DNA from: Acidimicrobiia bacterium
GTDB taxonomy: Bacteria > Actinomycetota > Acidimicrobiia > Spongiisociales > JAENVV01
Assembly: GCA_016650365.1 (NCBI GenBank)
Contig: JAENVV010000161.1
Span: 1 to 53,647 of the forward strand
DNA length: 53,647 nucleotides
Reading direction: 5' to 3'
Shown here: positions 29,272-50,564 of the stretch, one piece after another
How the letters are laid out: each line of letters starts with the position of its first letter
Numbering within the stretch: the first letter of the stretch is position 1
Notes under the pieces: model-generated
Database searches by the model: none
Told to the model about the DNA's origin: nothing
The model's input: the letters and a program-made list of their open reading frames with translations, nothing else
Position numbers and translations under genes: made by a program

Positions 29272-29325
29272 CGTTGTTCACTCTCCTCTTGTCGATTCGT
29301 TGATTCCACATGGCGCCAGGTCGCG

Positions 29326-30303
29326 TCAGATCACCTCGGCCAGGTCAGGGCGACGATTCGCCCCACCACGATCTGACACAAGATTGATTGCGACACCGGC
29401 CAGCACCAGACCCAGCCCGATAGCCAGTCCGACGGTGACCTGTTCGCCGAGGAAGATCGCCGATGACACGACTCCGACCACGGGAACCGCCATGAGAGTG
29501 AGATTGGTGGATACGGCGGCCAGATTCCGCAATACGACTACCAGCGCCACGAAGGACACCCCCGAGGCCAGGACCGATTGATAGGCCACCACACCTACAA
29601 GCTGGGGCGTCCATTCGAAGACGGGAAGACCATCAATGAGCAACGCAAGGGTTGTCAGAACGACAGCCGCACCGGCCAGCTGCCAGGGAAGGGCTTCGAT
29701 CGGAGTGATCGTCCACCGATGCGCCCGAATGTGGACTGCGGTGGCCGCATCCGTGATGGCAGCAAGTATCAGGAGCCCGTGACCAAGCGCTACTCCCGGT
29801 TGGTTCCATGACATACCCCATGGTTCGAACAAGACAATCACACCGGAGACACCGATCGCCAGTCCCGACCAACGCTGGCGACTCATCCGTTCGCCAAGGA
29901 AGATCACGGCCAGAGGGACCGTCCACAAAGAAATCGTCCACACCACGACGGCCGATCGACCAGCGGGGACGAGTTGGAGAGCGGTGAAGACCAGGAAGAA
30001 TACGGCCGCCAGGCGGAAAACGGCCAGCGAAACAATGACCGGCAGGTCCCTCGCTGGCGGTATTCGCATGCTTCGGGTGGCCAGTCCAATGCCGATCACC
30101 ATCACTGCCGCTCCGAGCACCCGGAACGACCCCATCCACAGCGGGGTCAGGGTTCGAAGTCCTACGGCCATGATCGGCCAGTTGAGGCCGAGAATCAGAA
30201 TGCCCAAAACAAGCAGGAGGTATATCGCCCGGCGAGTAAGCCTGCGATCTACTGCAGAACCCACCCCGGGCTCCCATATCAAATCCCGCGCAAACGGGAT
30301 CAT
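29326..30303 (-). CDS. EamA/DMT-superfamily transporter
   Basis: A 325-residue protein with about ten hydrophobic helices in two EamA repeats. The first repeat ends near VVVWTISLWTVPLAVIFLGERMSRQRW and the second near LMAVPVVGVVSSAIFLGEQV; the shared IFLGE motif marks each repeat. It probably exports or imports a metabolite of the pathway. Its ATG overlaps the MFS stop by four bases (30300-30303), so the two transporters are translated together. Direction of transport cannot be inferred. Confidence 0.84.
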   Translation of the reverse strand: MIPFARDLIWEPGVGSAVDRRLTRRAIYLLLVLGILILGLNWPIMAVGLRTLTPLWMGSFRVLGAAVMVIGIGLATRSMRIPPARDLPVIVSLAVFRLAAVFFLVFTALQLVPAGRSAVVVWTISLWTVPLAVIFLGERMSRQRWSGLAIGVSGVIVLFEPWGMSWNQPGVALGHGLLILAAITDAATAVHIRAHRWTITPIEALPWQLAGAAVVLTTLALLIDGLPVFEWTPQLVGVVAYQSVLASGVSFVALVVVLRNLAAVSTNLTLMAVPVVGVVSSAIFLGEQVTVGLAIGLGLVLAGVAINLVSDRGGANRRPDLAEVI

Positions 30304-31580
30304 GTCTGCGCCTGCACATGGGGGTCAGGTTGCCCGGGATCGTAAACGTAGTTGCGGAACCCGGGCGACCACCGGGCCAGGGCCACCGCCCCCAGGACGC
30401 AGGCGATTCCCCCCGAGATCACCGAGATACGCACAGAGGTGAGTTCGGCGACCACCCCGGCCTCCAGGTCCCCAAGACGGGGGCCACCCCCTGCTGCAGC
30501 AACGTGGATCGACGACAGCCGACCCCGAAGATGGTCCGGAACGGACAGTTGGATTATGGCCTGGCGCAGAATCGCCGACACGACGTCTGCCCAACCGGCA
30601 AAGGCCAGCATCGCCAGTGCAAACATCACCGAGGTCGTAAACCCGAACGCGGTCATCGCCATGCCCCAGGCGATCACGGACATGATGACGGCGCGGCCCT
30701 GAAGGCGAACGGTCGCCACCCATCCTGAGGTAAGGGCACCCACCAGCGCCCCGACCCCCGGGGCGGCATACAGCAGTCCAACCGTGATGGCGTCGCCCCC
30801 CAGAACCGCGGTTCCGAAGGCAGGAAACAGGGCGGTTGGCATCCCAAAGACCATGGCATTGAGGTCAATGAGCATGGCTGCCTGGATGAGTCGGCGTGAT
30901 TTGAGGAAGGCCAACCCTTCAGCGATCGAGGACCAACCCATCTTGCGGCCACCACCCTCGGTCGGAACGTTCGGCGTCCGCCACATCAGGCTCGCTCCGA
31001 CCAAAAACATGGCAATGGCAACCGCATAGGTTGGTCCAAGACCGACGCCGGCTATGAGCAACCCGCCGACGGCCGGAATGGCCGCTTTGGCCGTGTTGCT
31101 GAGGGTCTGGTTCATCGCCAGGGCAGATGGCAACAGCTTCCTGCCAACCAATCCGGGGAGAAGGGCCTGCCGGGAAGGGTGGTCGATCGCCGACACCCCG
31201 GCATTGATGCCGACCAGGACGAACAGAGGCCAGACCGCCGGGCTGGTCGCCACCGAGTTCCAGAACAGACCGGCCGCAGTTGCGGCGAGAGTGACCTGAG
31301 CGATGACGAGTAACCGCTTCCGATCGAACGCATCGGCCAGGGCCCCACCCACCAACGAAACCGCCAGGAGAGGAATCAACTGGGCCAGGCCGAGCAAACC
31401 AACTTGAAGTGTGGAACCCGTGAGTGCGTACACCTGCACGGGAACTGCGACGACGAGGAGTTGCCTCCCGGCTTGGACGAAGAACATACCGGCAAACAGC
31501 CACCGATACCCAGGCACCTCCCGAAGGGGGGTGACGTCGACGACTGCGAGCCGTCCCAACCTTTGAAGACGCTTCCTCAC
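30300..31580 (-). CDS. MFS transporter (EntS/MFS_3-like)
   Basis: A 426-residue major facilitator with about twelve helices. The loop between helices 2 and 3 is GGALADAFDRKRLL, and SAIDHPSRQALLPGLVGR is the characteristic segment of the EntS-like exporter branch. The C-terminus ends in a short polar tail (DPGQPDPHVQAQT). I place the start at GTG 31580, because it overlaps the oxidase stop in the usual GTGA manner (31577-31580). A GTG at 31619 would give a 43-base overlap. It shares an operon with the oxidase, a Gfo/Idh dehydrogenase and an amidohydrolase. Confidence 0.83.
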   Translation of the reverse strand: MRKRLQRLGRLAVVDVTPLREVPGYRWLFAGMFFVQAGRQLLVVAVPVQVYALTGSTLQVGLLGLAQLIPLLAVSLVGGALADAFDRKRLLVIAQVTLAATAAGLFWNSVATSPAVWPLFVLVGINAGVSAIDHPSRQALLPGLVGRKLLPSALAMNQTLSNTAKAAIPAVGGLLIAGVGLGPTYAVAIAMFLVGASLMWRTPNVPTEGGGRKMGWSSIAEGLAFLKSRRLIQAAMLIDLNAMVFGMPTALFPAFGTAVLGGDAITVGLLYAAPGVGALVGALTSGWVATVRLQGRAVIMSVIAWGMAMTAFGFTTSVMFALAMLAFAGWADVVSAILRQAIIQLSVPDHLRGRLSSIHVAAAGGGPRLGDLEAGVVAELTSVRISVISGGIACVLGAVALARWSPGFRNYVYDPGQPDPHVQAQT

Positions 31581-32647
31581 AGAAAGGCCGGCCCCGAAGG
31601 GGGAACCGGAATCGACCACCGGACTCGATCAGGAGTGATCTCGGTAATCTCGCGACACCCGATGTTTGCCATGGTGATGCTGATCTCGGTTTTGAGGATG
31701 TCGAGTACCCGAACCAGGCCGTCAGTCCCGCCAACGGCCAGGCCCCAGCATTGAAGCCGGCCAATGCCGACCGCCGTGGCACCTAGCGCCAACGCTTTGC
31801 AGACGTCGGCACCACTCGTAAACCCGCTATCAACCGCGACGTCAACCGACGCACCGACCGCCGCCACAATCTCACCCAGTACCTCGATAGTGCTCATGCC
31901 GTGGTCAACCACCCGACCGCCGTGGTTGGAGACATAGATAGCCGCCACCCCGCACTCGACCGCGGCCACGGCGTCTTCGACCGTCATGACCCCCTTCACG
32001 ATTACCGGCAACTCAGAGTTCTCGACGAGCCAGCGCAAGTCTTCCCAGGTGAACCTGGCCCGGAACTTGGGGTCGGATCCGTGCTGCTGGAGGTTGGGCG
32101 GGCTCGGAGAACTCCAACCAAAGACCTGTTCAATGCTTCGGTCCCGACGAGACAGTATCGGAGTATCAACGGTGACGCAGATGGCGGCGAACCCGGCCTG
32201 CTTTACCCGAGCCGCAACTTCGTGCATCCAGTCGCGGTCCCCAAACACGTACATCTGAAAGATGTGATGGCCGGGATGGGTGGCCGCAACGTCCTCCCAT
32301 GGCGAGGTGGTCAACTCCGAACAGATGATGGCCGTCGAAACCTGAGTAGCGGCCGCCGCGGCGGCCAGGGCATCACCGGCGTCGTAAATCCCCAACGCGC
32401 CGACCGGGGCGAGCATGACCGGAAACGCCAGCGGAATCCCGACAAACGAGGTGGCGGTATCGACCTCTTCGACATTGCGCATGTGGCGCGGTACAAGCGC
32501 GAGACTATTGAGGCCGATACTGTTCCTCGCGACCGTCACCCCATCGCCCGCACCGGCGGCCCCCCAGGCGAATGCGCTGGGGTCCACGATCTCTCGTGCC
32601 CTGGCAATCACCTGCCGGATAGTTTTGAGATCGGCAAGATCTGTCAT
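31577..32647 (-). CDS. FMN-dependent alpha-hydroxyacid oxidase/dehydrogenase family
   Basis: A 356-residue TIM-barrel flavoenzyme of the glycolate-oxidase/lactate-dehydrogenase family, oxidising a 2-hydroxy acid to a 2-oxo acid. Active-site His242 and Arg245 lie in SNHGGRVVD. Other conserved residues are Tyr133 in QMYVFGDR, Asp161 in VTVDTP, Arg167/168 and Lys218 in VIVKGV. The N-terminal substrate-binding Tyr of the family appears replaced, since AFAWGAAGAGD stands where (Y/D)Y(Y/I)xSGAxD is normal. The start is ATG 32647, overlapping the dehydrogenase stop (ATGA). An open frame continues upstream inside the neighbour and is not used. Confidence 0.86.
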   Translation of the reverse strand: MTDLADLKTIRQVIARAREIVDPSAFAWGAAGAGDGVTVARNSIGLNSLALVPRHMRNVEEVDTATSFVGIPLAFPVMLAPVGALGIYDAGDALAAAAAATQVSTAIICSELTTSPWEDVAATHPGHHIFQMYVFGDRDWMHEVAARVKQAGFAAICVTVDTPILSRRDRSIEQVFGWSSPSPPNLQQHGSDPKFRARFTWEDLRWLVENSELPVIVKGVMTVEDAVAAVECGVAAIYVSNHGGRVVDHGMSTIEVLGEIVAAVGASVDVAVDSGFTSGADVCKALALGATAVGIGRLQCWGLAVGGTDGLVRVLDILKTEISITMANIGCREITEITPDRVRWSIPVPPSGPAFL

Positions 32648-33669
32648 GCCGTACCCGATGGATGGCGATAGTCGACCTCGACGAGTCGGCGTTCGTTCAC
32701 CGACCACTTGATGGCGTCGCACAGTTGTGCGCTTCGTAAACCGTCCCATCCCGAGGCGTTGGGTTCCTCATCGTTCAAGACCGCCGCTGTGAACGCCGCC
32801 ACCGACAGCCGGTGGGCGTCGGGGGCGGGGTAATGAGTGTGCTGCTCCCCCGACCCGGTCAGGACCGTCAGATCGCCGTCGATTCGCGACCGGGTGAACC
32901 CGCTTCCGATCATGCGACCGGTGGATCCGAAGATGCGCAGTTCGTTGACCGGATTGGCAACGCTCTCGTTGAAATTGCAGTAGGCGAGCGTTCCGTTGTC
33001 GAACCTGATCAGAACCAGCCCGAGTGATTCGACGACGTCGCTGGCCGCCGGCCGGTCGAACATTGCCATCACTTCAACCGGCTCGGCCTGCAGGATGACC
33101 CTGAGAAAGTCGAGTCCATGAACGCCAACATTGTGTATCGACCCGAGGCCGGCCATACCAGGGTCAGTGCGCCAGTTGTCCCACTTACGAGCGCCCGAGC
33201 TCACTTCGAGCTCGACGACCTGGACGCTACCGATCGTGCCTTCGCCAATCAGTGTCCTGACGTCATCGACCCACTTGAGGTGTCGATTATGAAAGTTCAC
33301 GCCCAGTTTCACGCCAGCCCGTTGACAGGCTTCAACTGCCCGAATCGCATCCGGCACGTTGATCGCCAACGGTTTGTCGCACAGAACATGCTTTCCAGCG
33401 AGGGCCGCTGCTACGACCTGGTCGGCATGCAGTCCGTTCGGAGTAGCGATAAAGACCGCGTCGACTTCAGGGTTGGCGAGCATCTCGTCGTAGTCCGTGT
33501 AGGCGTACCGAGCGCCAAATGTGGTTGCGAAATCCGTGGCCCTGGCTTGATCGCGACTTACCGCTGCCACCAACTCACAGGACGGTTCGGCAACCATCGC
33601 CGGGGCAATCGTGCCTTTGACGATGTTGCCGATACCGATGATTCCCCATCCGAGGCTCACACCGCTCAT
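32644..33669 (-). CDS. Gfo/Idh/MocA-family oxidoreductase
   Basis: A 341-residue NAD(P)-dependent dehydrogenase acting on a sugar, inositol or related polyol (family knowledge). The Rossmann motif is WGIIGIGNIVKG (8-19). The cofactor/catalytic Lys lies in LCDKPLAINV. The second-domain segment includes GLGSIHNVGVHGLDFLR with the conserved H-G-L-D. It overlaps both the amidohydrolase before it (33666-33669) and the oxidase after it (32644-32647) by four bases. Codon use matches its neighbours. Confidence 0.88.
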   Translation of the reverse strand: MSGVSLGWGIIGIGNIVKGTIAPAMVAEPSCELVAAVSRDQARATDFATTFGARYAYTDYDEMLANPEVDAVFIATPNGLHADQVVAAALAGKHVLCDKPLAINVPDAIRAVEACQRAGVKLGVNFHNRHLKWVDDVRTLIGEGTIGSVQVVELEVSSGARKWDNWRTDPGMAGLGSIHNVGVHGLDFLRVILQAEPVEVMAMFDRPAASDVVESLGLVLIRFDNGTLAYCNFNESVANPVNELRIFGSTGRMIGSGFTRSRIDGDLTVLTGSGEQHTHYPAPDAHRLSVAAFTAAVLNDEEPNASGWDGLRSAQLCDAIKWSVNERRLVEVDYRHPSGTA

Positions 33670-34661
33670 CCTGAGAAACCAAGCAGGCGGGCAGGATTCT
33701 CGGACAGGATCGCCTCTTTCTCGTCAAGTCCGAGCTCAGGCAATCCTCGCACCCAGTTCACACAATCGGCCAGCACCATCGGGGCCGGATAATCGGTGCC
33801 GAGCACCACCCGTTCGATGCCGACCGCATCGATGAGAAAGCGGAGCACCGAACCGCTGTATGTGCAGCAGTCGTAGTAGAAGCGGCTGAGGTATTCGCTC
33901 GGAGCCAGCTGCTGAGAAAATCCATCGTTGCCTTTGAAAACGGGCGTCATCCCCTCGCCGGCCTCAAGCGCCCCGGCTACCTTGTCCATGCGGGCTACCC
34001 CATAGGCCGTATACCCGCCCCCATGGGCGAGGAGAGGTTTCAAGTCGGGAAACCGATCGAGAACTCCACCGAACACGAGCGTGGCGTACACCAGCGCCCG
34101 TTCCGTAAGGTTCCCGACCGCATTGGGGAGCTTGTACCGACTGTTCCGCTTGGCAACGATGGTGTCCTGGCTCTGATGGAAGAACACAATCGCTCCCAAC
34201 TCTTCGGCGGCGGCGAAAAACGGAAGGAAGTCCGGATCGTCGTAGGTGCGGCCGGCCACGTGGTCGCTGATGACCACTCCCTTCATACCCAACTCGAGCA
34301 TCACTCGTTCCATCTCGGCGATGGCACTTGGCGGGTCCTGCATCGGGACGATTCCCATGCCCGCAAAACGGGTCGGATGTTGTTCGACCATCTCGGCAAT
34401 CTCGTTATTACATTCGCGGTTGATGAGCTTGGTCTTCGATAGCTCGTTGGAGTACTGGTAGAACCCAACCGTGGGCGTCACAAGCTGCATGTCGACGCCC
34501 AGCGCATCCATTTCAGCCAGTCGGTCCGGAAGCGAAATATCAAACTTGCCGAATCCGAGTTCACCGGGATGCTCGTCGAGCCCATACCACTCACCCCGGG
34601 TCCGAATGGCCTGCTTGTACCGTTCGGGTGTGACGTGAGCATGCGTGTCGATCACCGGCAT
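33666..34661 (-). CDS. ACMSD-like metal-dependent amidohydrolase (decarboxylase type), copy 1
   Basis: A 331-residue TIM-barrel hydrolase of the amidohydrolase-2 family. Its layout is that of 2-amino-3-carboxymuconate-6-semialdehyde decarboxylase. Metal and active-site residues are His7 and His9 in IDTHAHV, an Arg in LPDRLAEMDALGVD, His in IVFFHQSQD, His in LLAHGGGYT and Asp in VLGTDYPAP. It would remove CO2 from a carboxylated substrate or open a lactone. It leads a minus-strand operon of amidohydrolase, Gfo/Idh, oxidase, MFS and DMT. A GGAG ribosome site precedes the ATG, and a candidate operator lies 38 bases upstream. Confidence 0.87.
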   Translation of the reverse strand: MPVIDTHAHVTPERYKQAIRTRGEWYGLDEHPGELGFGKFDISLPDRLAEMDALGVDMQLVTPTVGFYQYSNELSKTKLINRECNNEIAEMVEQHPTRFAGMGIVPMQDPPSAIAEMERVMLELGMKGVVISDHVAGRTYDDPDFLPFFAAAEELGAIVFFHQSQDTIVAKRNSRYKLPNAVGNLTERALVYATLVFGGVLDRFPDLKPLLAHGGGYTAYGVARMDKVAGALEAGEGMTPVFKGNDGFSQQLAPSEYLSRFYYDCCTYSGSVLRFLIDAVGIERVVLGTDYPAPMVLADCVNWVRGLPELGLDEKEAILSENPARLLGFSG

Positions 34662-34698: not shown

Positions 34699-34715
34699 TA
34701 CGATGCATTCTATAT
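34699..34715. promoter_or_regulatory. palindromic candidate operator, third member of the shared motif
   Basis: The core TA-N2-ATGCAT-N2-TA lies at 34699-34712, in the divergent promoter between the amidohydrolase operon (start 34661) and the aldolase gene (start 34771). Read on the minus strand it is TATAGAATGCATCGTAC, matching 13 of 17 positions of the site at 49395. It is weaker than the other two sites but in the right place. Confidence 0.45.
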
Positions 34716-34770
34716 TGTTTGCCAACGACCCTCCCGAACGGCAGGGCTTCTCTCGCAAGGAGACCATCAC

Positions 34771-35544
34771 ATGGCCCAACCCTTCAAACAGCGCCTTCAG
34801 GCAGGTGACCAGTTGGTCGTGTTCGCCATCGGGCGAATGCACAATCCCAACATCATCCAATACCTCGGGATGACCGGGGACTTCGACGGTTTCTGGATCG
34901 ACGTTGAGCACGCCGGCTTCACCGTCAACGAGATCGAAGCCGCGGTGGCCGCCGGACGGGCCCACGGCCTGGAGAGTTTCGTAAGGGTCCCCCCCACCGA
35001 CTACGCCACCGTGACCCGATGTTTCGAAAGCGGAGCGATGGGTGTGATGGCCGCCCAAATCACCTCAGCGGCCCAAGCAGAGGAGTTCGTTGGGTGGTCG
35101 AAGTTTGCTCCGCGGGGACGCCGAGGTCTCAACCCGATGGGCTACGACGGACGCTACGGGACCATCCCCATGGCCGAATTCACCGAACGCGCCAATCGGG
35201 AGACGATGGTGGCAGTACAGATTGAAACCGCTCAGGCGGTCGACGAAGTCGAGGCAATTGCGGCCGTCGACGGCGTCGACATGTTGTTCGTCGGACCATC
35301 CGACCTCAGCCAGGCCCTCGGAGTCATCGGCGACTTCATGCATGAGCGGTGCCTGTCCGCCGTGGACGAAATCGCCGCGGCGTGTCGGACCCACGGTAAA
35401 CAATGGGGAGCGGTCACGCCGACTCCCGAGTATGCCTCACTGCTCATCGAAAAGGGCTGCACGCTCATTTCGCCGACGAATGACGTCAAGCTGATCACGT
35501 CTGGACTTGCCGCCACCAAGGAGCGCTTCTCAAACCTCTGGTAG
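34771..35544 (+). CDS. HpcH/HpaI-family aldolase
   Basis: A 257-residue class II aldolase that would split a 2-oxo-4-hydroxy acid into pyruvate (or a related 2-oxo acid) and an aldehyde. Family residues are visible: FWIDVEHAGF (catalytic His), SFVRVPPTD (substrate Arg), the metal ligand Glu in QIETAQAVDEV and Asp in FVGPSDLSQALG. The start ATG 34771 follows a near-ideal AAGGAGA ribosome site. The open frame upstream to 34645 crosses the operator and lacks such a site. It is divergent from the amidohydrolase operon, and control by the shared operator at 34699 would make both respond to the same signal. Confidence 0.88.
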   Translation: MAQPFKQRLQAGDQLVVFAIGRMHNPNIIQYLGMTGDFDGFWIDVEHAGFTVNEIEAAVAAGRAHGLESFVRVPPTDYATVTRCFESGAMGVMAAQITSAAQAEEFVGWSKFAPRGRRGLNPMGYDGRYGTIPMAEFTERANRETMVAVQIETAQAVDEVEAIAAVDGVDMLFVGPSDLSQALGVIGDFMHERCLSAVDEIAAACRTHGKQWGAVTPTPEYASLLIEKGCTLISPTNDVKLITSGLAATKERFSNLW

Positions 35545-36754: not shown

Positions 36755-36769
36755 AGTCAATATTACATA

Positions 36770-37972
36770 ATGTCAGATATGGAATCTGCCCGACGAGGAT
36801 TTGGTTCGCCGATCCCCTGGATGGTGGCCCTCAACGTGATCGGCGTGAACCTGATCGCGCCAGTGCTCCCCGCCTACGCCAGCCATTTCGGAGTCGGATT
36901 TGCCGCCGCTTCGACATTGGTTACCGTCTTTGCCCTCGCTCGCATGAGTCTTCGTCTGACCGCCGGTTCATGGGCCGATCGCTACGGTTCTCGAATCGTT
37001 TGCATCGGCGGCGGAGCCGTCCAAACGGTCGGCGCGCTGCTGGCGGTCTTCGCCCCGAGCCTGAGCCTGCTCCTGGCAGCGCGCGCCATCCAGGGAATGG
37101 GATCAGCCCTTTTCGGAACCTCAATCAATCGCTACCTGCTGGTCATCACCGGCAAGGCCGAACTTGGCAGGGCGACCGCCAGCTTCCAGGGTGGAATCCT
37201 CCTGGGAAGCACCATCGGCCCGCTCGTCGGTGGCATCGTCGCTGTACGGTTCGGAATCTTCGCACCGTTCTATGTGCAGGCCACCATCGCCGGTCTGCTC
37301 GCCATCGTGAGCAGCCAGTACATTCGCGACGGCGCCCTCCCGGCCAGAGCAGTTGCAGGTGCACCAACCCAGACTCGATCCTTCCGATCCGTGCTCGAAA
37401 TCCGTGGCTTCAAGGTGATCATGTTCCTTGGCTTCGGTCTGTTCTTCCTACGGGCCGGAGCGATCAGTGTCCTCATACCCGCCTTCGCAGACGTGGTACT
37501 CGACTTGTCACCAGCCATGATCGGATTCCTGATCTCCCTCGGATCGATCGCCTCGCTCATTGCCATGCCCATCGCCGGCCAGGTCGCTGACCGGTTCGGG
37601 AGAATCCCGGTGGCACTGGCCGGGGCGTTTAGCACCGCAGCAACGGTAACCCTGTTCGGCCTGGCCGACAGCGCCATAGGCATGATGGTCATTTCGGCGC
37701 TGCTGGGCTTAGGGATCGGGTTGGCGGCGGTTGCTCTCCCGACCATGATCGGCGATATCGCTCCGTCCGGAACCGAAGGACGAGCCAGCGCCGTATATCG
37801 CATGGCAAATGATCTCGGTTGGGTGGTCGGACCGGTGACGCTAGGACTACTAGCCGACAGCGCTAGGTACGGCTTGGCCTTTGCAGTAGCCGGACTACCC
37901 CTGGTGATGGGCGGAGCCATTCTCCTGCGCTGGCGTCAGGCGGAAAGGGACGTCGGTTTGGCGTCACGGTAA
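36770..37972 (+). CDS. MFS transporter
   Basis: A 400-residue, about twelve-helix major facilitator. The loop motif between helices 2 and 3 is GSWADRYGSRIV and its second-half equivalent is GQVADRFGRIPVA. Further signature segments are AIQGMGSALFGTSINRYL and DIAPSGTEGRASAVYRMAND. It resembles sugar or drug transporters of the DHA/TCR type. The start is uncertain: ATG 36770 or 36779, neither with a ribosome site, while an AT-rich stretch sits just upstream, so a leaderless message is possible. The frame is open back to 36689. Confidence 0.85.
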   Translation: MSDMESARRGFGSPIPWMVALNVIGVNLIAPVLPAYASHFGVGFAAASTLVTVFALARMSLRLTAGSWADRYGSRIVCIGGGAVQTVGALLAVFAPSLSLLLAARAIQGMGSALFGTSINRYLLVITGKAELGRATASFQGGILLGSTIGPLVGGIVAVRFGIFAPFYVQATIAGLLAIVSSQYIRDGALPARAVAGAPTQTRSFRSVLEIRGFKVIMFLGFGLFFLRAGAISVLIPAFADVVLDLSPAMIGFLISLGSIASLIAMPIAGQVADRFGRIPVALAGAFSTAATVTLFGLADSAIGMMVISALLGLGIGLAAVALPTMIGDIAPSGTEGRASAVYRMANDLGWVVGPVTLGLLADSARYGLAFAVAGLPLVMGGAILLRWRQAERDVGLASR

Positions 37973-42418: not shown

Positions 42419-43315
42419 CTATTTGGACGATCCTGCCGTAAGCCCCGACACCACATATCTCTCAAGCCGGGTGTAGACGAGGATAAACGGCAACACCGTA
42501 ATGATGGCGAAGGCCGCCTCGGCTGGGAAGTTCGAAATCCCTTCGCTCTGACCCATTTTGAACAACGCGAACGGCAGGGTTCTGGTGGTGGGATTGGTGG
42601 TGAGCACGAGCACCAGGGTGAACTCGTTCCAGGCCTCCCGGAACGCCAGCACGGCAATGGTGATTAGGGCCGGAGCAGCCAACGGCATAACAATGTAACG
42701 CAGGCGATCCCACAAGTTGGCGCCATCGACATCGGCAGCTTCCTCTATCTCGCGAGGGATCTGTTGGAAGAACCCGACCATGAGCCAGACCGCCAGAGGG
42801 ACCAGTGTTCCGGTATAGACAATGATCAAGGTAATCCTCTTGTCCAGCATGTTGGTCGCCACAGCCAACCGGTAGATCGGAACCAGGATGCCGATACTCG
42901 GGACCAGCCGGGGTAGAAGCGTGAAGAGCAGCAAGAGGTGCCGGCCGCGAAACTTGAACCTGGCGAATGCGTAGGCAGCCGGAAGCCCGATGACGATCGT
43001 CAGAAGTGCCGTCCCGAACCCAACCACCACGCTATTCACGAATGCATTCAGGAAGTTCGGATCCGTGAAGACCTCTTTGTAGGCATCGAGGGTGGGCTGT
43101 TGAGGAACCAGCCCGAGGTTGGCGAACGTCTCGATCTTGGTCTTGATCGAAACGGACAGTGTCACGAGGAACGGAATGAACGTCCAGACCGCCAGCATGA
43201 ACAACGGCAGGCCGACCAACAATCGATGCCCGAACTTGGCGAGTTTCGATCGCGGTTTGCCGGCCATGTGGCCGCGGTTACCGATTTTGGTTGCGTCAAT
43301 CAATTGCTCAGCCAT
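42419..43315 (-). CDS. ABC importer permease, MalG/carbohydrate type
   Basis: A 298-residue inner-membrane permease with about six helices. The EAA loop that contacts the ATPase is EEAADVDGANLWDRLRYIVM. The N-terminal region has FIPFLVTLSVSIKT, usual for MalG/UgpE-type proteins. Its start shares one base with the stop of the partner permease (TGATG at 43313-43317). The substrate is probably a sugar or polyol derivative, given the family and surrounding enzymes. No ATPase gene of this importer is in the window. Confidence 0.9.
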   Translation of the reverse strand: MAEQLIDATKIGNRGHMAGKPRSKLAKFGHRLLVGLPLFMLAVWTFIPFLVTLSVSIKTKIETFANLGLVPQQPTLDAYKEVFTDPNFLNAFVNSVVVGFGTALLTIVIGLPAAYAFARFKFRGRHLLLLFTLLPRLVPSIGILVPIYRLAVATNMLDKRITLIIVYTGTLVPLAVWLMVGFFQQIPREIEEAADVDGANLWDRLRYIVMPLAAPALITIAVLAFREAWNEFTLVLVLTTNPTTRTLPFALFKMGQSEGISNFPAEAAFAIITVLPFILVYTRLERYVVSGLTAGSSK

Positions 43316-44244
43316 CAGGCATCGATCTCGTAGCGGCGGGCAACCCTCACGTAACCCAACGTGAGCACGGCGTTCAGAATCAGGATGAAGGTGGCGATCG
43401 CCAACGCCTCATTGAACTTCAATGCCCGGAAGGCGACGTTGTACATCTCCATCGCCAGGGTCGTCGTCGACCCAATCGGGCCACCGCCCGTTAGCGCGAG
43501 CACTACCCCGAGTCCGGTAAGAGTCGAGTAACTGAGCCAAACAGTCGAGATGACGAGCTGTGGGGCGAGCAATGGAATTGTGAGGTAACGAGCCCGTTGC
43601 CAGGCCGAGGCACCATCGACAAGGGCGGCGTCGAGGTAGGACGTGTCGATCGTCATCAGACCGCCCAAGAGAAGCAGGATCGTCAACGGAATGTCGGTCC
43701 ACACCTGTGTAAAGATCACCACAGTCATCGCCCACGTCGTCGAGGAGAGCCAGGCAGGTCCGTCGATGCCGACCGTTCCAAGAACACTGTTGATCAAGCC
43801 AAGATCGGAGTTGAACAGAAGACGGAACATGACGGCGGCGGCCACATTCGAGATCAGATACGGAGCCAGGGTGGCCGCCCGCATCCACCGAAGGCGCCCG
43901 ATAGAACGGTAGAGGGCAAATGAAAACAACAACCCGAGGGTAGTGCCAACGACAAGACATCCACCTACGAAGAACCCGGTGCGGTACAAGGCGCTCCAGA
44001 AATCAGGGTCGCTAAACATGTCGGAATAGTTGAGGCCACCGACGAATTCCTCGGGAAGACCCAGTTCAGGAGCTCGGTACAGACTCTGCCAGATACCGTA
44101 GAGCACCGGAAATGCCAGAACCGCGCTGACGACAAATATGGCCGGAAACGAAAAGAGATATGGCGTTGCCCGGCCTTGACCGATCTGAGCGCCGTTTCGT
44201 TCGCGAGCCTTTGGCTGCTTCTTCTGTTCTTGTGTGGCGGTCAT
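43315..44244 (-). CDS. ABC importer permease, MalF/carbohydrate type
   Basis: A 309-residue permease with about six helices. Family features are PYLFSFPAIFVVSAVLAFPV, the LLFNSDLGLINSVLG loop, and the EAA loop DAALVDGASAWQRARYLTIP. The N-terminal tail is charged (EQKKQPKARERNG). It pairs with the MalG-type permease in one transcription unit after the binding-protein gene. A strong hairpin lies upstream, between it and the binding-protein gene. Confidence 0.9.
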   Translation of the reverse strand: MTATQEQKKQPKARERNGAQIGQGRATPYLFSFPAIFVVSAVLAFPVLYGIWQSLYRAPELGLPEEFVGGLNYSDMFSDPDFWSALYRTGFFVGGCLVVGTTLGLLFSFALYRSIGRLRWMRAATLAPYLISNVAAAVMFRLLFNSDLGLINSVLGTVGIDGPAWLSSTTWAMTVVIFTQVWTDIPLTILLLLGGLMTIDTSYLDAALVDGASAWQRARYLTIPLLAPQLVISTVWLSYSTLTGLGVVLALTGGGPIGSTTTLAMEMYNVAFRALKFNEALAIATFILILNAVLTLGYVRVARRYEIDA

Positions 44245-44378: not shown

Positions 44379-45683
44379 TTACAGGTCATCAAGTAGTGGC
44401 TGATACTGGTCGGCTAGTTCTTGAGCCGTCTTGTCGGTTCCCACAACGATCTCACCAAACAGCTGCTCGAGCACGAGCTCTACCTCGCCACCGTTGAGAC
44501 CGGAGGGCACCGAGTCACTTCCCGAGTATGCGGCTCTCAGGCCCTCGTTGAAGAACGGCCAGATGTCATCCAACCGTGGATCGGCGAGCGCAACGCTGTT
44601 ACGCATCGGCACCGAGCCGTTGGCAGCTGCATCCACGAGCTGATCCACCGTTCCCACCCATTCGATGGCCTGCATCGCTTCGTGCGGATACGGGGTCGAA
44701 GAGGTGATTGCCCAGGAGCGGGCATTCGAGATCTGGTTGCCGCTACCTGAGGTTGGCGATGGAATGACGTTCCATTCAGTGCCGAGATTGAACCCTTCCA
44801 GTTCGTTGAACTCACCAGCGACGGTGAACCCGTCAAGAATGAACGCCGCACGCTGGCCGGCAAAGGCGCCGCGGGCTTCGTCCTCACCCCAGGAGATCGC
44901 CTGCGGTGGTAACAAGCCCTCGTCGGAAGCCTGCAACCACCAGTTCAAAACGTACAGACCACCTTCGGATTGCAAGTCAGGTACGGCACCGTCAAACGGT
45001 GCGCCGGCCGCGCTAAAGAGGGTCTTCAGCGTGGTGATGCCGGTACCCGGCTTGGCTTGGACCGTCAACGGAATGATCTCAGGGTCAGATGCCTTCACGG
45101 CGCGCATGGCGTCAAGGAAGCCATCGAGTGACGTGATACCCGCACAGTCGACTGAGGCCGCCTCACACGCTGCGAGGTTGTAGTAGATGACATCAAAGTT
45201 GGCAGTCAACGACACCCCGTAGATCCCGTCGCCGAACTTGTTCTCGTCCCAGGCGATGGGGAGAATCTGGTTGTAGGCATCGGGATCTTCTTGCTCCCAC
45301 AGATTCTTCTGCTCCGTCATGTCAAGCAGCAGACCAGCGTTCTGGTACGCCTCAATGAGGAACGTGTCGTCCTGGATGACATCAGGGAGCCGCTGTCCGG
45401 CGTCTTGCATACGCTGGAGTTGCTGCAAAATATCGTCGTTCGATTCCGTCTGCACGGTCACTTTGATGTTCGGATGCTCTGCCATGAACCCGGCCCACAT
45501 ATCTGGTGGTCGGTAGTAATCGCGGGAGACCCAAATGAGCAGATCGATTTGTTCGTCGCCTCCGCTGGTACCTCCCGTTGCCGCCGTAGTATCCGACGAT
45601 GACCCGCCGCAAGCGGCGATCACCATCGATAGGACTGCGAACAACGCCACAATCCGTGTCCATTTTCCAGTAGAACGAGTCAT
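44379..45683 (-). CDS. extracellular solute-binding lipoprotein (family 1) of the ABC importer
   Basis: A 434-residue binding protein. The signal and lipobox are AVLSMVIAACGGSS (lipidated Cys about 25). The mature part has the family's early segment LIWVSRDYYRPPDMWAGFMA, then NIKVTVQTESNDDILQQLQ, and the late segment SWAITSSTPYPHEAMQAIEW. It would capture a carbohydrate-like ligand outside the membrane. I chose ATG 45683 because it starts the signal peptide; an open frame to 45716 adds an acidic tail. It is the first gene of the importer operon. A shared-motif operator lies about 231 bases upstream. Confidence 0.9.
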   Translation of the reverse strand: MTRSTGKWTRIVALFAVLSMVIAACGGSSSDTTAATGGTSGGDEQIDLLIWVSRDYYRPPDMWAGFMAEHPNIKVTVQTESNDDILQQLQRMQDAGQRLPDVIQDDTFLIEAYQNAGLLLDMTEQKNLWEQEDPDAYNQILPIAWDENKFGDGIYGVSLTANFDVIYYNLAACEAASVDCAGITSLDGFLDAMRAVKASDPEIIPLTVQAKPGTGITTLKTLFSAAGAPFDGAVPDLQSEGGLYVLNWWLQASDEGLLPPQAISWGEDEARGAFAGQRAAFILDGFTVAGEFNELEGFNLGTEWNVIPSPTSGSGNQISNARSWAITSSTPYPHEAMQAIEWVGTVDQLVDAAANGSVPMRNSVALADPRLDDIWPFFNEGLRAAYSGSDSVPSGLNGGEVELVLEQLFGEIVVGTDKTAQELADQYQPLLDDL

Positions 45684-46065
45684 TCGCTCAGTTTCCCTTT
45701 CATCAGCGTCCGCCAAGGTCAGCCGGACTCCGGATCTTGCTCACGTGACGTAACTATCTCGCCGACGTCTGAACTCTCGCTTGATGTTGAAACGTACTCC
45801 GACGACAAGCGAGAGCGTGGAATGGATGGCACTTTCCTCGTGGTTCGACGACCACCCGTTCCCTCCTCCGGCCTACCGGCGCGTTACGAGACCCAAATCA
45901 TCGAGGCCCCGAATATCGTGCATCATATACGATACGAGACGGGAAGGGGCTGGAAATCCGAATAGTTGTCAACGCTTCCTCAGAAGCATTGACGGCCTCC
46001 CGAACACCGAGCACCGCTGCGACGTGTTGCTCTGCAGATGCCAGCTCATGGGAGACGGCACCGGA
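45684..46065. other. 382-base gap: promoter region of the importer operon
   Basis: No gene is supported here. It holds the palindromic site at 45914-45929 and probably the promoter for the binding-protein gene. I see no tRNA or long repeat. Confidence 0.5.
45914..45929 (-). promoter_or_regulatory. palindromic candidate operator, shared motif
   Basis: On the minus strand the site reads TATATGATGCACGATA. It matches 15 of 16 bases of the site at 49395-49410, which lies before another operon of the island. The core TATnATGCAnnATA is near-symmetric, as expected for a dimeric repressor or activator. It is upstream of the ABC importer operon. Confidence 0.6.
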
Positions 46066-47100
46066 TCAATCTTCGCTCATCAACATCTTGAGCCGATCGA
46101 GATTGTCAGGGCTCATCTCGAGTTGCCCACGGTCAATCTGGCCGTAGATCTCGAAGACCGCCGAGTTGGCGGGGGTTCGAACATTAACCTCGGCACCCTT
46201 CTTGACGATGAGACCTGTGATGAACTCATACTCGCTGCGTCGCCCCTTCCGCTGATCTTGCACGACGGCGGTTACGGCGTCTTCGCCAACATGGGCATTG
46301 AGCGTGTCCATTGCCTTGAGGAGTACTTCGTCGGTTCCGCCACTGAACTCTTCAGCGCTCAAACCAAACACAGGCTCAAGCCGATATCCGAGGGCTTTTC
46401 CGACCGCAACGGACTCTTTCCCCAAACTCACCGAGATCTCGCGCATACCTGGCAGCCGGGCGGCCTCCGCGTTGCGGAGTCCAAACAATCCAAACGGCCC
46501 CATGACCATGGTGTTGGCGACCAACTTGGTCCACTTCGAGCCGTAAATGTTCGTCGACACTTCCGTTCTGGCAACCGCCGACAGGAGATCGGCCAACATT
46601 TCGGCCCGGGCCGTAACGGAGCCGTCCAGTTCGCCAACGGTTAGCCAGGTCCCCGAACGCGAGGTGTTGCGGGTCACGATGCCCGGTTCATAGATGTCAC
46701 CCGACAACTCGATGGCACATCCGATAGTCCGATCACGACCAACGATCTCAGCATGCGCATCATCGTTCATCGAGTTCTGGATGCCGACCAGTACGCCGTC
46801 TTTCGCAAGATACGGTTCAATCAACTGCGCGGCCCATTTGGTGTCGTACGACTTCACGCAAATGATCGCAAGATCAAACATCGGTTTAATGGAAGCCAGA
46901 TCACAGATGTGATTGGCATTCACAGAAACATGCAGGGCGAGGTCTGGCATGTTGATACGGAGGCCGTCTAACCGCATCTTCTCAACATGCGCGGGCCACT
47001 GGTCAATGATGGTTACATCGTGGCCTGCGTCGGTGAGATCGGCGGCAACACTCGAACCGATCGCGCCGGTTCCGACGACAACAATCTTTCTGAAAGCCAT
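46066..47100 (-). CDS. ketopantoate-reductase-like (PanE/ApbA family) oxidoreductase
   Basis: A 344-residue NADPH-dependent enzyme. It has the nucleotide motif VVVGTGAIGSSVAADL (7-22), the ICVKSYDTK segment (Lys near the cofactor), and the catalytic-Lys region YGSKWTKLVANTMVM. The C-terminal helical domain includes QDQRKGRRSEYEFITG, characteristic of the family (R-x-x-E-x-D/E-x-x-x-G). It sits in an operon with an enolase-superfamily enzyme and a Gfo/Idh dehydrogenase, not with pantothenate genes. It therefore probably reduces another 2-oxo acid of the pathway. ATG 47100 lies five bases after the preceding stop. Confidence 0.84.
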   Translation of the reverse strand: MAFRKIVVVGTGAIGSSVAADLTDAGHDVTIIDQWPAHVEKMRLDGLRINMPDLALHVSVNANHICDLASIKPMFDLAIICVKSYDTKWAAQLIEPYLAKDGVLVGIQNSMNDDAHAEIVGRDRTIGCAIELSGDIYEPGIVTRNTSRSGTWLTVGELDGSVTARAEMLADLLSAVARTEVSTNIYGSKWTKLVANTMVMGPFGLFGLRNAEAARLPGMREISVSLGKESVAVGKALGYRLEPVFGLSAEEFSGGTDEVLLKAMDTLNAHVGEDAVTAVVQDQRKGRRSEYEFITGLIVKKGAEVNVRTPANSAVFEIYGQIDRGQLEMSPDNLDRLKMLMSED

Positions 47101-47105
47101 CCGGT

Positions 47106-48203
47106 TCAGCCTTGGTCGATCGGCACGGACTCGCCCGTGGCCAGGGACTGCTCGATAGCCGACGTCACGGCGACCACCCGGCGAGCCTCCTGAACCGTGG
47201 TGAGATAACAATCGGATCCGCTCGCCAGATAGTCGATCCATGACCTGGTTTCGTTGGCCAATCGACCGAACATGGTGTCGCCGACCCATTCACCCGTGGT
47301 CCGGCTGCCGAGGAACGCGAAGTTCAACTCCTGATTCGTTGCGTACGAGTTTCGATAACCGCGCTCTGAAAACAACATCTGATCGCGATGGTCGTCGTCA
47401 ATGAGAAGGGCCCCTTCGGTGCCGAAGACCTCAAAGCGAATGCTCTGTCCGGTCGTAGGAAACCCCATCGGCAACATATAACAGACGCCGATATCGACCA
47501 CCGTTCCGTTGCTGAAACGGATCATCGCCCAGGCCACGTCATCGACATCAAATCCGTGTTCCCGAAAGACGGTGCCATGGCCGCGGGCCACTACTTCGAC
47601 CGGCACCTGCGGGGCGAGATACCAGCACGCCACATCCACCAGATAGGTAGCGATGTCGACGACCGGAGTGGCAACCGCCGAACGGTTCAGGATGGCCAGA
47701 CCCTGGGCGCGGGAACTGTAAACCCGCCCGGTGAGACCAACCACATCGCCGATCATCCCGGAGGCGACATTGTCCCAGCCAACTGAATACTTCTGCAGGT
47801 ATCGCATCGAGTAACCGACCCGAACATCCACGTCGGCTGCCTCGGCCGCAGCAACAATCTGGTCGGCATCTTCAAGTGTCAGGGCGAGCGGCTTCTCGAT
47901 GAGTACCGGTTTTCCAGAAGCGATTGCCGCCAGAGCGGGTCCGGTGTGATTGGGCTCTGAGGTGGAGATGACAATGGCGTCAACCCGCTCGTCTGAAGCC
48001 AGCTCCTCGACCGTCTCTGCTACCAGATCGGCATCAAGATCCTCTCCGACGCCGACGGCCCTACCGTGATCTGCGTCCATCAACGCCAGAAAGTCAACCG
48101 ACGGGTGCTGAGCGGCCAGCCGGGCTCGTTGGAGCCCGATCTTTCCGGTACCTACAACACCAATTCCGATATCGCGCCTATTCCGGGCCACGAGCCCTCC
48201 CAT
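47106..48203 (-). CDS. Gfo/Idh/MocA-family oxidoreductase, paralogue of 35586-36662
   Basis: A 365-residue dehydrogenase with IGVVGTGKIGLQRARLAAQH at the N-terminus, LIEKPLALTLEDADQIV as the cofactor/catalytic segment, and ATPVVDIATYLVDVACWYL in the substrate domain. The C-terminal ANETRSWIDYLASGSDC also lines up with the enzyme at 35586-36662. The middle gene of the operon enolase, Gfo/Idh, KPR, it is separated from both by five or six bases. It probably oxidises the sugar or polyol at the head of the pathway or its isomer. Confidence 0.88.
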   Translation of the reverse strand: MGGLVARNRRDIGIGVVGTGKIGLQRARLAAQHPSVDFLALMDADHGRAVGVGEDLDADLVAETVEELASDERVDAIVISTSEPNHTGPALAAIASGKPVLIEKPLALTLEDADQIVAAAEAADVDVRVGYSMRYLQKYSVGWDNVASGMIGDVVGLTGRVYSSRAQGLAILNRSAVATPVVDIATYLVDVACWYLAPQVPVEVVARGHGTVFREHGFDVDDVAWAMIRFSNGTVVDIGVCYMLPMGFPTTGQSIRFEVFGTEGALLIDDDHRDQMLFSERGYRNSYATNQELNFAFLGSRTTGEWVGDTMFGRLANETRSWIDYLASGSDCYLTTVQEARRVVAVTSAIEQSLATGESVPIDQG

Positions 48204-48209
48204 TCTCCA

Positions 48210-49319
48210 TCACGCCGAGACCTGCTCGCTCCACTTCACGTACCGCTTTACGACGGCCTCATCAACCTCGACACCCAGGCCGTCACCCTCGGGGACCCGC
48301 AATTCCCCGTTCGCCACCCCGACCGGGTTGAACACCAGATCATCAACCAGTTTGTGATTGCTCAGTCCGATTCCCCCACTCATCTCTGGTAACGCGGTGC
48401 CGATGTGAAGCATGGCCGATCCCCCGATACTCGACGTCGCCGACTTGCCGGCCACATTCACGCCCAATCGCAACAATCGAGCCAGATAGGCCGCCGACAT
48501 GAATCCCGTGATCCCACCCATCTTGATGGTCTTCATGCTCACTCCGGCCACGCCAACTTCCGCGTGGGCGATCAGGTCGGCAGGTTCATTGAACGACTCG
48601 TCGGTGTAGATCGGTACCGGACTGCGTTCGGCGACCGACCTCAACCGGCTCAAACTCCCCGGGGCAATCGGCTGCTCACAGAACGCCAGGTCGACGTCAG
48701 CAACCGCCTCCAGGAACCGTAACGCCTCGGCCGGCGACCAGGCACCGTTGGCGTCGATGGCAAAAGGAACATCGGGACCGATCGCCGCCCGAATCTCTCG
48801 GAGGGCAGCTTGTTCAAAGGCTGGTTCGGCGACTGACACTTTTGCCTTGAATGCCTGGACCCCGCGCTGTTGCCACTCGCCGGCTTTCTCCGCATCGCTC
48901 GGGTCGGCATTGACGCCAAGTGAGGCAGGAAGCGTGTCCCGGGCCCGCCCTCCGATGAGTTGGAAGACCGGCACACCAAGATGTTTGCCGGCGATGTCGT
49001 AGATAGCCATGTCGATGGCGCAAACCGCGCTCTGATTGTTGGCCATGGCTCCTGAGATCCGGGTATGGATTGCCGACACCGACTGCGGATCTTGCCCGAT
49101 GACAAGGTCGGCCAGATAGGCGATGGAAGCCGCAATCCGGGCACCTGTGTCGCCGGTTAGGAGTGGCGCTGAGGCCGCTTCTCCCCATCCCACCAGGCCT
49201 GTGTCAGTTTCGATTCTGACGAGTGCATTATCGGCATCGTGCTGGACACGGCCCGCTTTGCGAAACGGAGACGTCATCGGAATGGTGACGTGCATGGCCT
49301 CCACTTTGGTGATCTTCAA
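48210..49319 (-). CDS. enolase-superfamily enzyme, muconate-lactonising-type subgroup
   Basis: A 369-residue enzyme of the muconate cycloisomerase/dipeptide epimerase/o-succinylbenzoate synthase subgroup. Residues visible are Lys158 and Lys160 in FKAKVS, metal ligands Asp189 in AIDANG, Glu215 in FCEQP and Asp240 in YTDES, and the second Lys pair in MKTIKMGGI (263, 266). I place the start at TTG 49319, because an AGGAGA ribosome site is seven bases upstream and the family begins with KI-x-KVEA. An ATG at 49295 is the alternative. It is the first gene of the operon, and a shared-motif operator lies about 75 bases upstream. Confidence 0.86.
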   Translation of the reverse strand: MKITKVEAMHVTIPMTSPFRKAGRVQHDADNALVRIETDTGLVGWGEAASAPLLTGDTGARIAASIAYLADLVIGQDPQSVSAIHTRISGAMANNQSAVCAIDMAIYDIAGKHLGVPVFQLIGGRARDTLPASLGVNADPSDAEKAGEWQQRGVQAFKAKVSVAEPAFEQAALREIRAAIGPDVPFAIDANGAWSPAEALRFLEAVADVDLAFCEQPIAPGSLSRLRSVAERSPVPIYTDESFNEPADLIAHAEVGVAGVSMKTIKMGGITGFMSAAYLARLLRLGVNVAGKSATSSIGGSAMLHIGTALPEMSGGIGLSNHKLVDDLVFNPVGVANGELRVPEGDGLGVEVDEAVVKRYVKWSEQVSA

Positions 49320-49394
49320 AGGTCTCTCCTCGTACCCAGGGTGTACCCACATCGGGACCCAGTCGGCTTCGGCACCCGCCAGGCGGCACCATAA

Positions 49395-49410
49395 TATATG
49401 ATGCATGATA
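49395..49410 (+). promoter_or_regulatory. palindromic candidate operator, shared motif
   Basis: TATATGATGCATGATA lies between the minus-strand enolase-Gfo/Idh-KPR operon (start 49319) and the plus-strand Gfo/Idh gene (start 49569). It is symmetric around ATGCAT apart from one G-G pair. It is almost identical to the site at 45914-45929. It could control both directions. Confidence 0.6.
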
Positions 49411-49568: not shown

Positions 49569-50564
49569 ATGGAATCGTTGAGAGTGGCCTCAGTTGGACT
49601 CGGTTGGTGGGGCGCCACGCTCGCCGAAAAGGCGACCAAGGCCGGTATCAGTCTTGTCGGTTGCTATGCCAGAACGCCGGAGAGCCGGGACGAATTTGCC
49701 GCCGCTCATGGCGGCCGACCCGCCGCAACACTCGATGAACTTCTATCGGACCCCGATGTCGAAGCGGTCATGATCGCTACTCCTCACTCCACCCATGCCG
49801 ACCTGGTTGCAGAAGTAGCCGCCGCAGGCAAACACGTATTCGTGGACAAACCATTCACGCTGAAAGTCGCCGAGGCCAAGCGAGCGATCCGCGCCGCCGA
49901 GCAGGCGGGGGTCGTGCTTCAGGTTGGGCACAACCGACGTCGCCAACCAGCCACCCGGAGGCTAAAGGAGATGGTGGATGCGGGGACACTCGGCATGATC
50001 CACTACGCCGAAGCCAACCTTTCGTACCCTAAGGGACTCACACCGCGGAGCGGGTGGCGGGGCGATCCGGCCGAGAGTCCAGCTGGCGGCATGGCCGGGC
50101 TGGGAGTCCACATGGCTGACAATCTCATCTATTTGCTCGGGCGGCCGGCCAGAGTGGCAGCCTTCAGCAAGCAGATCATCGCAGTTCGCCACCTCGACGA
50201 CGTCACAACCGCAAACGTTGAATTCGAGAGCGGACCGCTGGCGTTCCTTGGATCAGCCATGGTCATCCCCGACATTGCTCGCACCGCGGTATGGGGCACC
50301 GAAGCTGCTGCCTGGAACGAGAACGATGGCGAAGAGTTCTACTTTCAGCCGGTCGGTGAAAAAGTCCGAGAACAACAACCTGTCGCAAACCTTGATACCG
50401 TCGCTGACGAACTCGAAGAATTTGCCCGCAACATTCGCACCGGTAGCCGGCCCGAGACGGGTGGTCCAGAGGCGCTCGAAGTCGTCGCCCTGTTCGAAGG
50501 CATCGTCGAAAGCGCCGCGACCGGGCGGGTGGTGGATCTCGACGAAGTCCGCGCCAGAGAGTAG
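49569..50564 (+). CDS. Gfo/Idh/MocA-family oxidoreductase
   Basis: A 331-residue NAD(P)-dependent dehydrogenase. The Rossmann motif is VASVGLGWWGATLAEKA (5-21). The cofactor/catalytic segment is VFVDKPFTLKVAEAKRAI, and the substrate-domain motif is AGGMAGLGVHMADNLIYLL. It is more like the 32644-33669 enzyme than the 35586/47106 pair. A second ATG three bases upstream (49566) is possible; GGAG at 49561 fits the later start better. It is monocistronic, transcribed away from the enolase operon. Confidence 0.86.
   Translation: MESLRVASVGLGWWGATLAEKATKAGISLVGCYARTPESRDEFAAAHGGRPAATLDELLSDPDVEAVMIATPHSTHADLVAEVAAAGKHVFVDKPFTLKVAEAKRAIRAAEQAGVVLQVGHNRRRQPATRRLKEMVDAGTLGMIHYAEANLSYPKGLTPRSGWRGDPAESPAGGMAGLGVHMADNLIYLLGRPARVAAFSKQIIAVRHLDDVTTANVEFESGPLAFLGSAMVIPDIARTAVWGTEAAAWNENDGEEFYFQPVGEKVREQQPVANLDTVADELEEFARNIRTGSRPETGGPEALEVVALFEGIVESAATGRVVDLDEVRARE

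Follow-up and report, generated by a model that had tools for sequence, protein, structure and literature searches.

A 19-bp palindrome in catabolic and uptake promoters of an Acidimicrobiia bacterium as the probable operator of an FCD-subfamily GntR regulator

The locus

In the 53,647-nucleotide stretch of Acidimicrobiia DNA analysed here (the window; contig C161 of a 3.49-Mb genome in 341 contigs), three sets of genes, namely an ATP-binding cassette (ABC) importer operon, an enolase-superfamily operon with its divergent Gfo/Idh gene, and an amidohydrolase operon with its divergent aldolase gene, each have a copy of one palindromic element in the gap ahead of them (Table 1). Open reading frames (ORFs) and Pfam matches agree in placing all three copies in promoter regions of catabolic or transport operons, as a sequence-only reading of this DNA had stated. 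The copies are probably operators of a GntR regulator of the FCD subfamily (FadR/VanR-type) that is encoded outside the window.

Table 1. Predicted operator sites, the window genes behind them and further sites in the same genome (positions are those of the window unless a contig is given; bits are position weight matrix (PWM) scores).
Feature	Position	Strand	Sequence, context or evidence
Putative operator site 1	45915..45933	+	ATCGTGCATCATATACGAT; in front of minus-strand ABC importer operon; 31.5 bits
Putative operator site 2	49391..49409	-	ATCATGCATCATATATTAT; between minus-strand enolase operon and divergent plus-strand Gfo/Idh gene; 31.9 bits
Putative operator site 3 (weaker)	34699..34719	+	TACGATGCATTCTATATTGTT; between amidohydrolase operon (minus) and HpcH aldolase (plus); 18.2 bits
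Candidate fourth operator	36760..36778	-	ATCTGACATTATGTAATAT; between Gfo/Idh (minus) and MFS transporter (plus); only 11.2 bits
ABC importer substrate-binding lipoprotein, first gene behind site 1	44379..45683	-	SBP_bac_1/SBP_bac_8; lipoprotein-like start MTRSTGKWTRIVALFAVLSMVIAACGG
Two ABC importer permease genes	43315-44244, 42419-43315 (42419..44244)	-	BPD_transp_1 in both
Enolase-superfamily (MR/MLE) enzyme, first gene behind site 2	48210..49319	-	MR_MLE_N and MR_MLE_C
Gfo/Idh dehydrogenase, enolase operon	47106-48203	-	Pfam GFO_IDH_MocA
Ketopantoate-reductase-like gene, enolase operon	ORF 46066-47289	-	Pfam ApbA; TIGR00745 above cut-off
Divergent Gfo/Idh dehydrogenase behind site 2	49569..50564	+	GFO_IDH_MocA
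Amidohydrolase, Gfo/Idh, FMN dehydrogenase, MFS, EamA and aldo-keto reductase genes behind site 3	28339..34661	-	Pfam
HpcH/HpaI-type aldolase, divergent gene behind site 3	34771..35544	+	PF03328
Site	C242		divergent enolase paralogue and MmgE/PrpD
Site	C42:50815		divergent enolase paralogue and DctP
Site	C153:9823		20 bp upstream of HMGL-like lyase
Site	C153:11169		divergent FAD oxidoreductase and aldehyde dehydrogenase
Site	C42:40781		HTH_67 and SDR
Site	C42:45815		ahead of thiolase
Site	C12		NMT1-type binding protein
Site	C328		3-hydroxyisobutyrate-dehydrogenase-like gene
Site	C59		luciferase-like oxidoreductase

Sites in the window and the shape of the element

The near-identity of sites 1 and 2, from which the sequence-only reading started, holds at the level of 15 of 16 bases common to positions 45914-45929 on the minus strand (TATATGATGCACGATA) and 49395-49410 on the plus strand (TATATGATGCATGATA). 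With TATATGATGCAYGATA and up to three mismatches the window yields exactly these two sites, where 0.15 matches are expected, and the pair stands above chance, two such matches occurring in 0 of 100 shuffled windows. The third, weaker site of that reading was likewise recovered, TANNATGCATNNTA at one mismatch finding sites 1 and 2 together with 34699-34712 (0.2 expected in the window). Relative to the symmetric pattern ATCNTRYATNATRYANGAT, site 1 has no mismatch, site 2 has one and the candidate at 36760-36778 has two. A sigma-70 scan found promoters no more frequent than in shuffles.

A pattern search across 138 genomes of the order gave 47 places at one mismatch, against about 10 for the control. 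When 26 sites were aligned with their flanks, positions 17-19, which lie outside the query pattern, proved to be G, A and T in 21 of 26 sites each, mirroring the ATC of the left arm. Since this right arm is conserved, unselected and symmetric to ATC, the predicted operator is the 19-bp odd palindrome ATCNTGCATNATATANGAT, centred on a single N and often extended to GATC...GATC. The functional unit spans 19-21 bp, with its centre 3.5 bp away from that of ATGCAT, and the 16-bp palindrome first described has to be redrawn as a longer, differently centred element whose NGAT arm had fallen outside the search pattern. The symmetry centre between the TG and CA of ATGCAT is retained only as a secondary, interleaved pseudo-palindrome. 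Overlapping matches offset by 7 bp occur at 25 of 33 strong sites, with no other offset; an interpretation as adjacent half-sites was set aside, the offset following from the inner symmetry of the motif and providing no separate evidence.

Genome-wide distribution and conservation

Counts for the whole genome rest on pattern searches. Allowing up to two mismatches, TATNNTGCATNATATA is matched 12 times forward and 9 times in reverse; the pattern read backwards is matched 2 and 1 times. The symmetric pattern ATCNTRYATNATRYANGAT is found in 31 places and its reversed control in 6, and those strong places that were examined belong to promoters of uptake or catabolic genes. As judged from these matches, at least ten operons for uptake or catabolism, in different parts of the genome, have ATCNTGCATNATATANGAT in their promoters. 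This uneven distribution supports the earlier proposal of a hidden regulon with a trans-acting regulator; the accompanying idea that the sites join the window genes into one pathway gives way to a multi-operon regulon spread over several contigs. The operator-bearing promoter on C328 adjoins a gene (L077 3-1331) whose product is a fusion of a BTAD regulator with an adenylate/guanylate cyclase domain.

The element is also present in orthologous promoters, where the sequence-only reading had advised looking for it. Over the window, the congener G001 shows about 89-93% identity. Across 11 orthologous sites it differs at 7 of 209 positions (3.3%), against 115 of 908 (12.7%) in the 40-bp flanks (Fisher P 2e-5), a four-fold lower rate of change in the sites than beside them, for pairs picked because both members score as sites. 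Site 3 is kept there at 19 of 19 positions, with 58 of 85 identical in its flanks, and site 2 at 18 of 19. Around site 1, the 26-bp block CCCGAATATCGTGCATCATATACGAT is invariant in three genomes and is the longest such stretch in its gap, the rest of which has strongly diverged in G002. The palindrome at 36760-36778 is identical in G001, but its flanks are kept too. A 78.9-kb contig of the congener (G001:C27) joins the counterparts of contigs C42, C242, C65 and C236 of the present genome and carries at least six operator-like sites together with a GntR gene of the C236 type; in the window's assembly this large catabolic island is broken up over several contigs.

Linkage to FCD GntR genes

No GntR gene was found in the window, in agreement with the earlier reading, and the three FCD GntR genes of the genome lie on C153, C27 and C236. 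Across the order, 15 of the 47 sites have an FCD gene within 12 kb on their contig (1.3 expected) and 8 have one within 3 kb (0.33 expected), although these counts include orthologous loci repeatedly and amount to about four independent cases within 3 kb. For the control families, distances were read by eye among the matches listed in 19 genomes of the order, which for IclR and TetR are the stronger ones; among these, one LacI gene, about four IclR genes and no TetR gene have a site within 12 kb, and at 3 kb or less none of the three families is represented. A GntR regulator is thereby favoured over LacI and IclR among the types that the sequence-only reading had considered.

The association is confined to one lineage of the family: a tree of 39 FCD proteins places every one of the 15 that are linked to a site in a single clade of 24, and none among the other 15. 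Moreover, the site recurs in the promoter or operon of the regulator itself, at L097, L098, L311, L319, L190 and the C65/C236 operon of the present genome. In L097 and L098 (genomes G133 and G134) the FCD GntR gene and an NMT1-type binding-protein gene diverge from a common gap, and the site lies there in the 17 bp that separate TTGACA from a -10-like box. Outside the class, 5 of 20 wider loci sampled around homologues in the same phylum carry a site of at least 18 bits, a score that shuffled sequence practically never reaches; in L311 the site lies between the GntR gene and the gene divergent to it, and in L319 at the GntR start, each with an own-promoter expectation of about zero. A scan of 80 named loci gave a single convincing site, in Nonomuraea aridisoli (L190, the closest named relative found, 43% identity), where a 24.7-bit site is followed by an asparaginase-like gene (by eye) and then by the GntR gene.

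Candidate regulators

Within the genome, the best regulator candidate is the C236 GntR, encoded by the last gene of an ABC importer operon. Contigs C236 and C65 overlap by 276 bp and join as in G001, and a 17.8-bit site at C65:1430 lies 84 bp upstream of the first gene of the operon thus formed. A related GntR on C27 may share the site with it. Both proteins carry the GntR winged-helix domain PF00392 (54.5 bits for C236 and 50.4 for C27; cut-off 27) and the FCD domain PF07729 (84.9 and 83.8 bits). N143, H147, H192 and H214 are invariant in 16 clade members and fit the FCD metal site N/D-x3-H ... H ... H, the conserved residues of which have a metal role in FCD proteins. Among the best named models and solved chains for the C236 protein are PhnR_burk (TIGR03338; 97.6 bits, where the cut-off is 271.5) and McbR of E. 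coli (PDB 4p9f; about 54 bits), respectively; on these scores both are of the same family and neither is the same regulator.

Several observations, besides the repeated counting of orthologous loci, weigh against an FCD GntR as the reader of these sites. The PWM scores are inflated at the columns of the related pattern with which the training sites were gathered. Clade members L171-L174 show no site in the stretch examined, nor do 6 of the 11 members outside the order with Thr, Ala or His at position 45. In addition, there is no site near the C27 GntR gene, on a contig of only 4.9 kb that limits this test. The C153 GntR, for its part, is an unlikely regulator of these sites: its contig has two strong and two weak sites, but its helix, SRIPIRDAL, keeps Arg45, and it probably reads another operator. 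The conserved GATTGTATACATTCCATNATGNAGGATC-like stretch around its start codon (L014 14246-14273; L151 2886-2913 in G003) is a TTGTATACA-like element and may be this protein's own, different operator.

An unusual operator and its recognition helix

Published operators of the FadR subfamily carry TKGT/ACMA boxes, with BioR (operator TTATMKATAA) and NanR (TGGTATAW repeats) as exceptions (PMC4494728), and in Atu1419, of the VanR group, Arg45 reads a guanine whose alteration abolishes binding (PMC7797058). The element described here has the palindromic, A/T-rich form of FCD GntR operators, its arms being symmetric about the central N; canonical TKGT-N2/3-ACMA boxes are absent, since nowhere in ATCNTGCATNATATANGAT do GT and AC stand the required distance apart. 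The main branch of the clade to which the sites are linked has VSTTPVREAL as its recognition helix, with Thr at what we take to be the FadR Arg45 position and mostly Ala at Arg35, as assigned by alignment to E. coli FadR. An operator that has A/T where GT/AC would usually stand is in keeping with these residues. Loss of FadR's two guanine-reading arginines would explain an operator without GT/AC boxes. Outside the order, site-linked GntRs have T, H or A at position 45, and no convincing site accompanies homologues that have R, K or S instead, both in small numbers.

The system resembles described FCD GntR regulons (Atu1419, PMC7797058; compilation, PMC4494728) in combining a GntR winged helix-turn-helix with an FCD domain, in its A/T-rich palindrome in divergent promoters, in the site at the regulator's own gene, in its catabolic targets and in an operator that overlaps promoter elements. 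It differs in that ATCNTGCATNATATANGAT lacks TKGT-N3-ACMA, in the mostly Ala and Thr residues at R35 and R45, and in spanning at least ten operons, against a mean of about 2.7 operons per regulator computed from Table 2 of PMC4494728 (1740 operons, 634 transcription factors). BioR and NanR (PMC4494728) likewise are FCD GntRs without the canonical GT/AC palindrome, but their operators have other sequences, with an even centre or direct repeats, and their targets are biotin or sialic acid genes instead of many catabolic operons. A literature search for the operator strings gave no paper on a GntR regulator among the 15 of its 64 matches that were listed. The proposed system is a GntR regulon of the FCD subfamily that takes in many operons and has a non-canonical operator. 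Tentatively, and with slightly less than even confidence, we suggest that an FCD clade swapped both guanine-reading arginines, took an operator of interleaved half-sites (inner palindrome TATNNTGCANNATA) and became, in this genus, a multi-operon regulator of catabolic and uptake operons, including same-family paralogues.

Alternative explanations

Other readings of the element have to be weighed against an FCD GntR operator. It is unlikely that the motif is read by a regulator of another kind, such as an IclR, LacI or TetR protein, the BTAD protein at the C328 site or the HTH_67 protein at the C42 site. An IclR gene does lie 3.6-6 kb from the site at the enolase/PrpD locus on C242 (G000:C242:12984), from the orthologous site in the congener (G001:C27:29076) and from a site on the contig of an enolase paralogue in G041 (G041:C56:46139), and the BTAD and HTH_67 genes flank single sites. 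However, IclR genes are about twice as numerous as FCD genes in these genomes, yet none is found within 3 kb among the matches listed, nor any LacI or TetR gene, against 8 sites for FCD, and only FCD GntR genes repeatedly have the site in their own promoters. The IclR protein at the enolase/PrpD locus is possibly a second, local regulator.

A core promoter, with a -10 box TATNAT and a fixed discriminator GCA shared by strong promoters of the lineage, is a little less probable again. Most sites read TATATNATGCA in the direction of the gene and several lie 20-35 bp upstream of the start, as this explanation would have it, but the element occurs at only about 30 places in 3.49 Mb, with those examined ahead of catabolic or transport genes, is absent from most genomes of the same order, tracks FCD GntR genes and has a 19-bp symmetry with conserved ATC and GAT arms. 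Both readings could apply at once where a repressor site extends over a -10 box. Least credible of all is a chance match or a recent promoter duplication behind the near-identical pair: sites 1 and 2 both have GATACGAG beside the palindrome, but it is placed differently relative to it, the flanks differ, the shuffled windows speak against chance, and the same palindrome stands in unrelated promoters on other contigs and in other classes.

Genes under the predicted operators

The binding-protein gene behind site 1 probably starts at 45683, with a lipoprotein signal, and the enolase-superfamily gene behind site 2 starts with TTG at 49319, with GAGGAG upstream, both slightly off the ORF list; the true start of the ketopantoate-reductase-like gene is nearer 47.1 kb. 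The enolase-superfamily enzyme scores under every NCBIfam cut-off, and the HpaI/GarL models score below cut-off for the aldolase. Three of the five enolase-superfamily paralogues of the genome carry the site (C161:48213, C242:8230 and C42:49721). A second such gene in the window (18021-19106, minus strand; 33% identity to the 48210 gene) has no operator ahead of it, so not all enolase paralogues belong to the regulon.

Proposed mechanism and outlook

The conserved palindrome, its slow change relative to the flanks and its linkage to one FCD clade together argue for a GntR operator. A GntR dimer would bind the palindrome and block RNA polymerase, a carboxylate or sugar-acid effector would, by analogy with other FCD regulators, release it, and scattered catabolic operons would be induced together; on the window operons, the C236 GntR, the C27 GntR or both may act. 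The proposal gives a putative regulator and operator to scattered catabolic genes that have no local regulator, and discovery of the effector would hint at the substrates of the enolase-superfamily enzymes, three of the five paralogues being under what would be the same switch. Furthermore, it pairs a change in the recognition helix (Arg45 to Thr, Arg35 to Ala) with the loss of GT/AC boxes in a large regulator family, and if this explanation of recognition is true, Arg at position 45 of the C236 GntR would shift its preference from ATCNTGCATNATATANGAT to a TTGTATACAA site.

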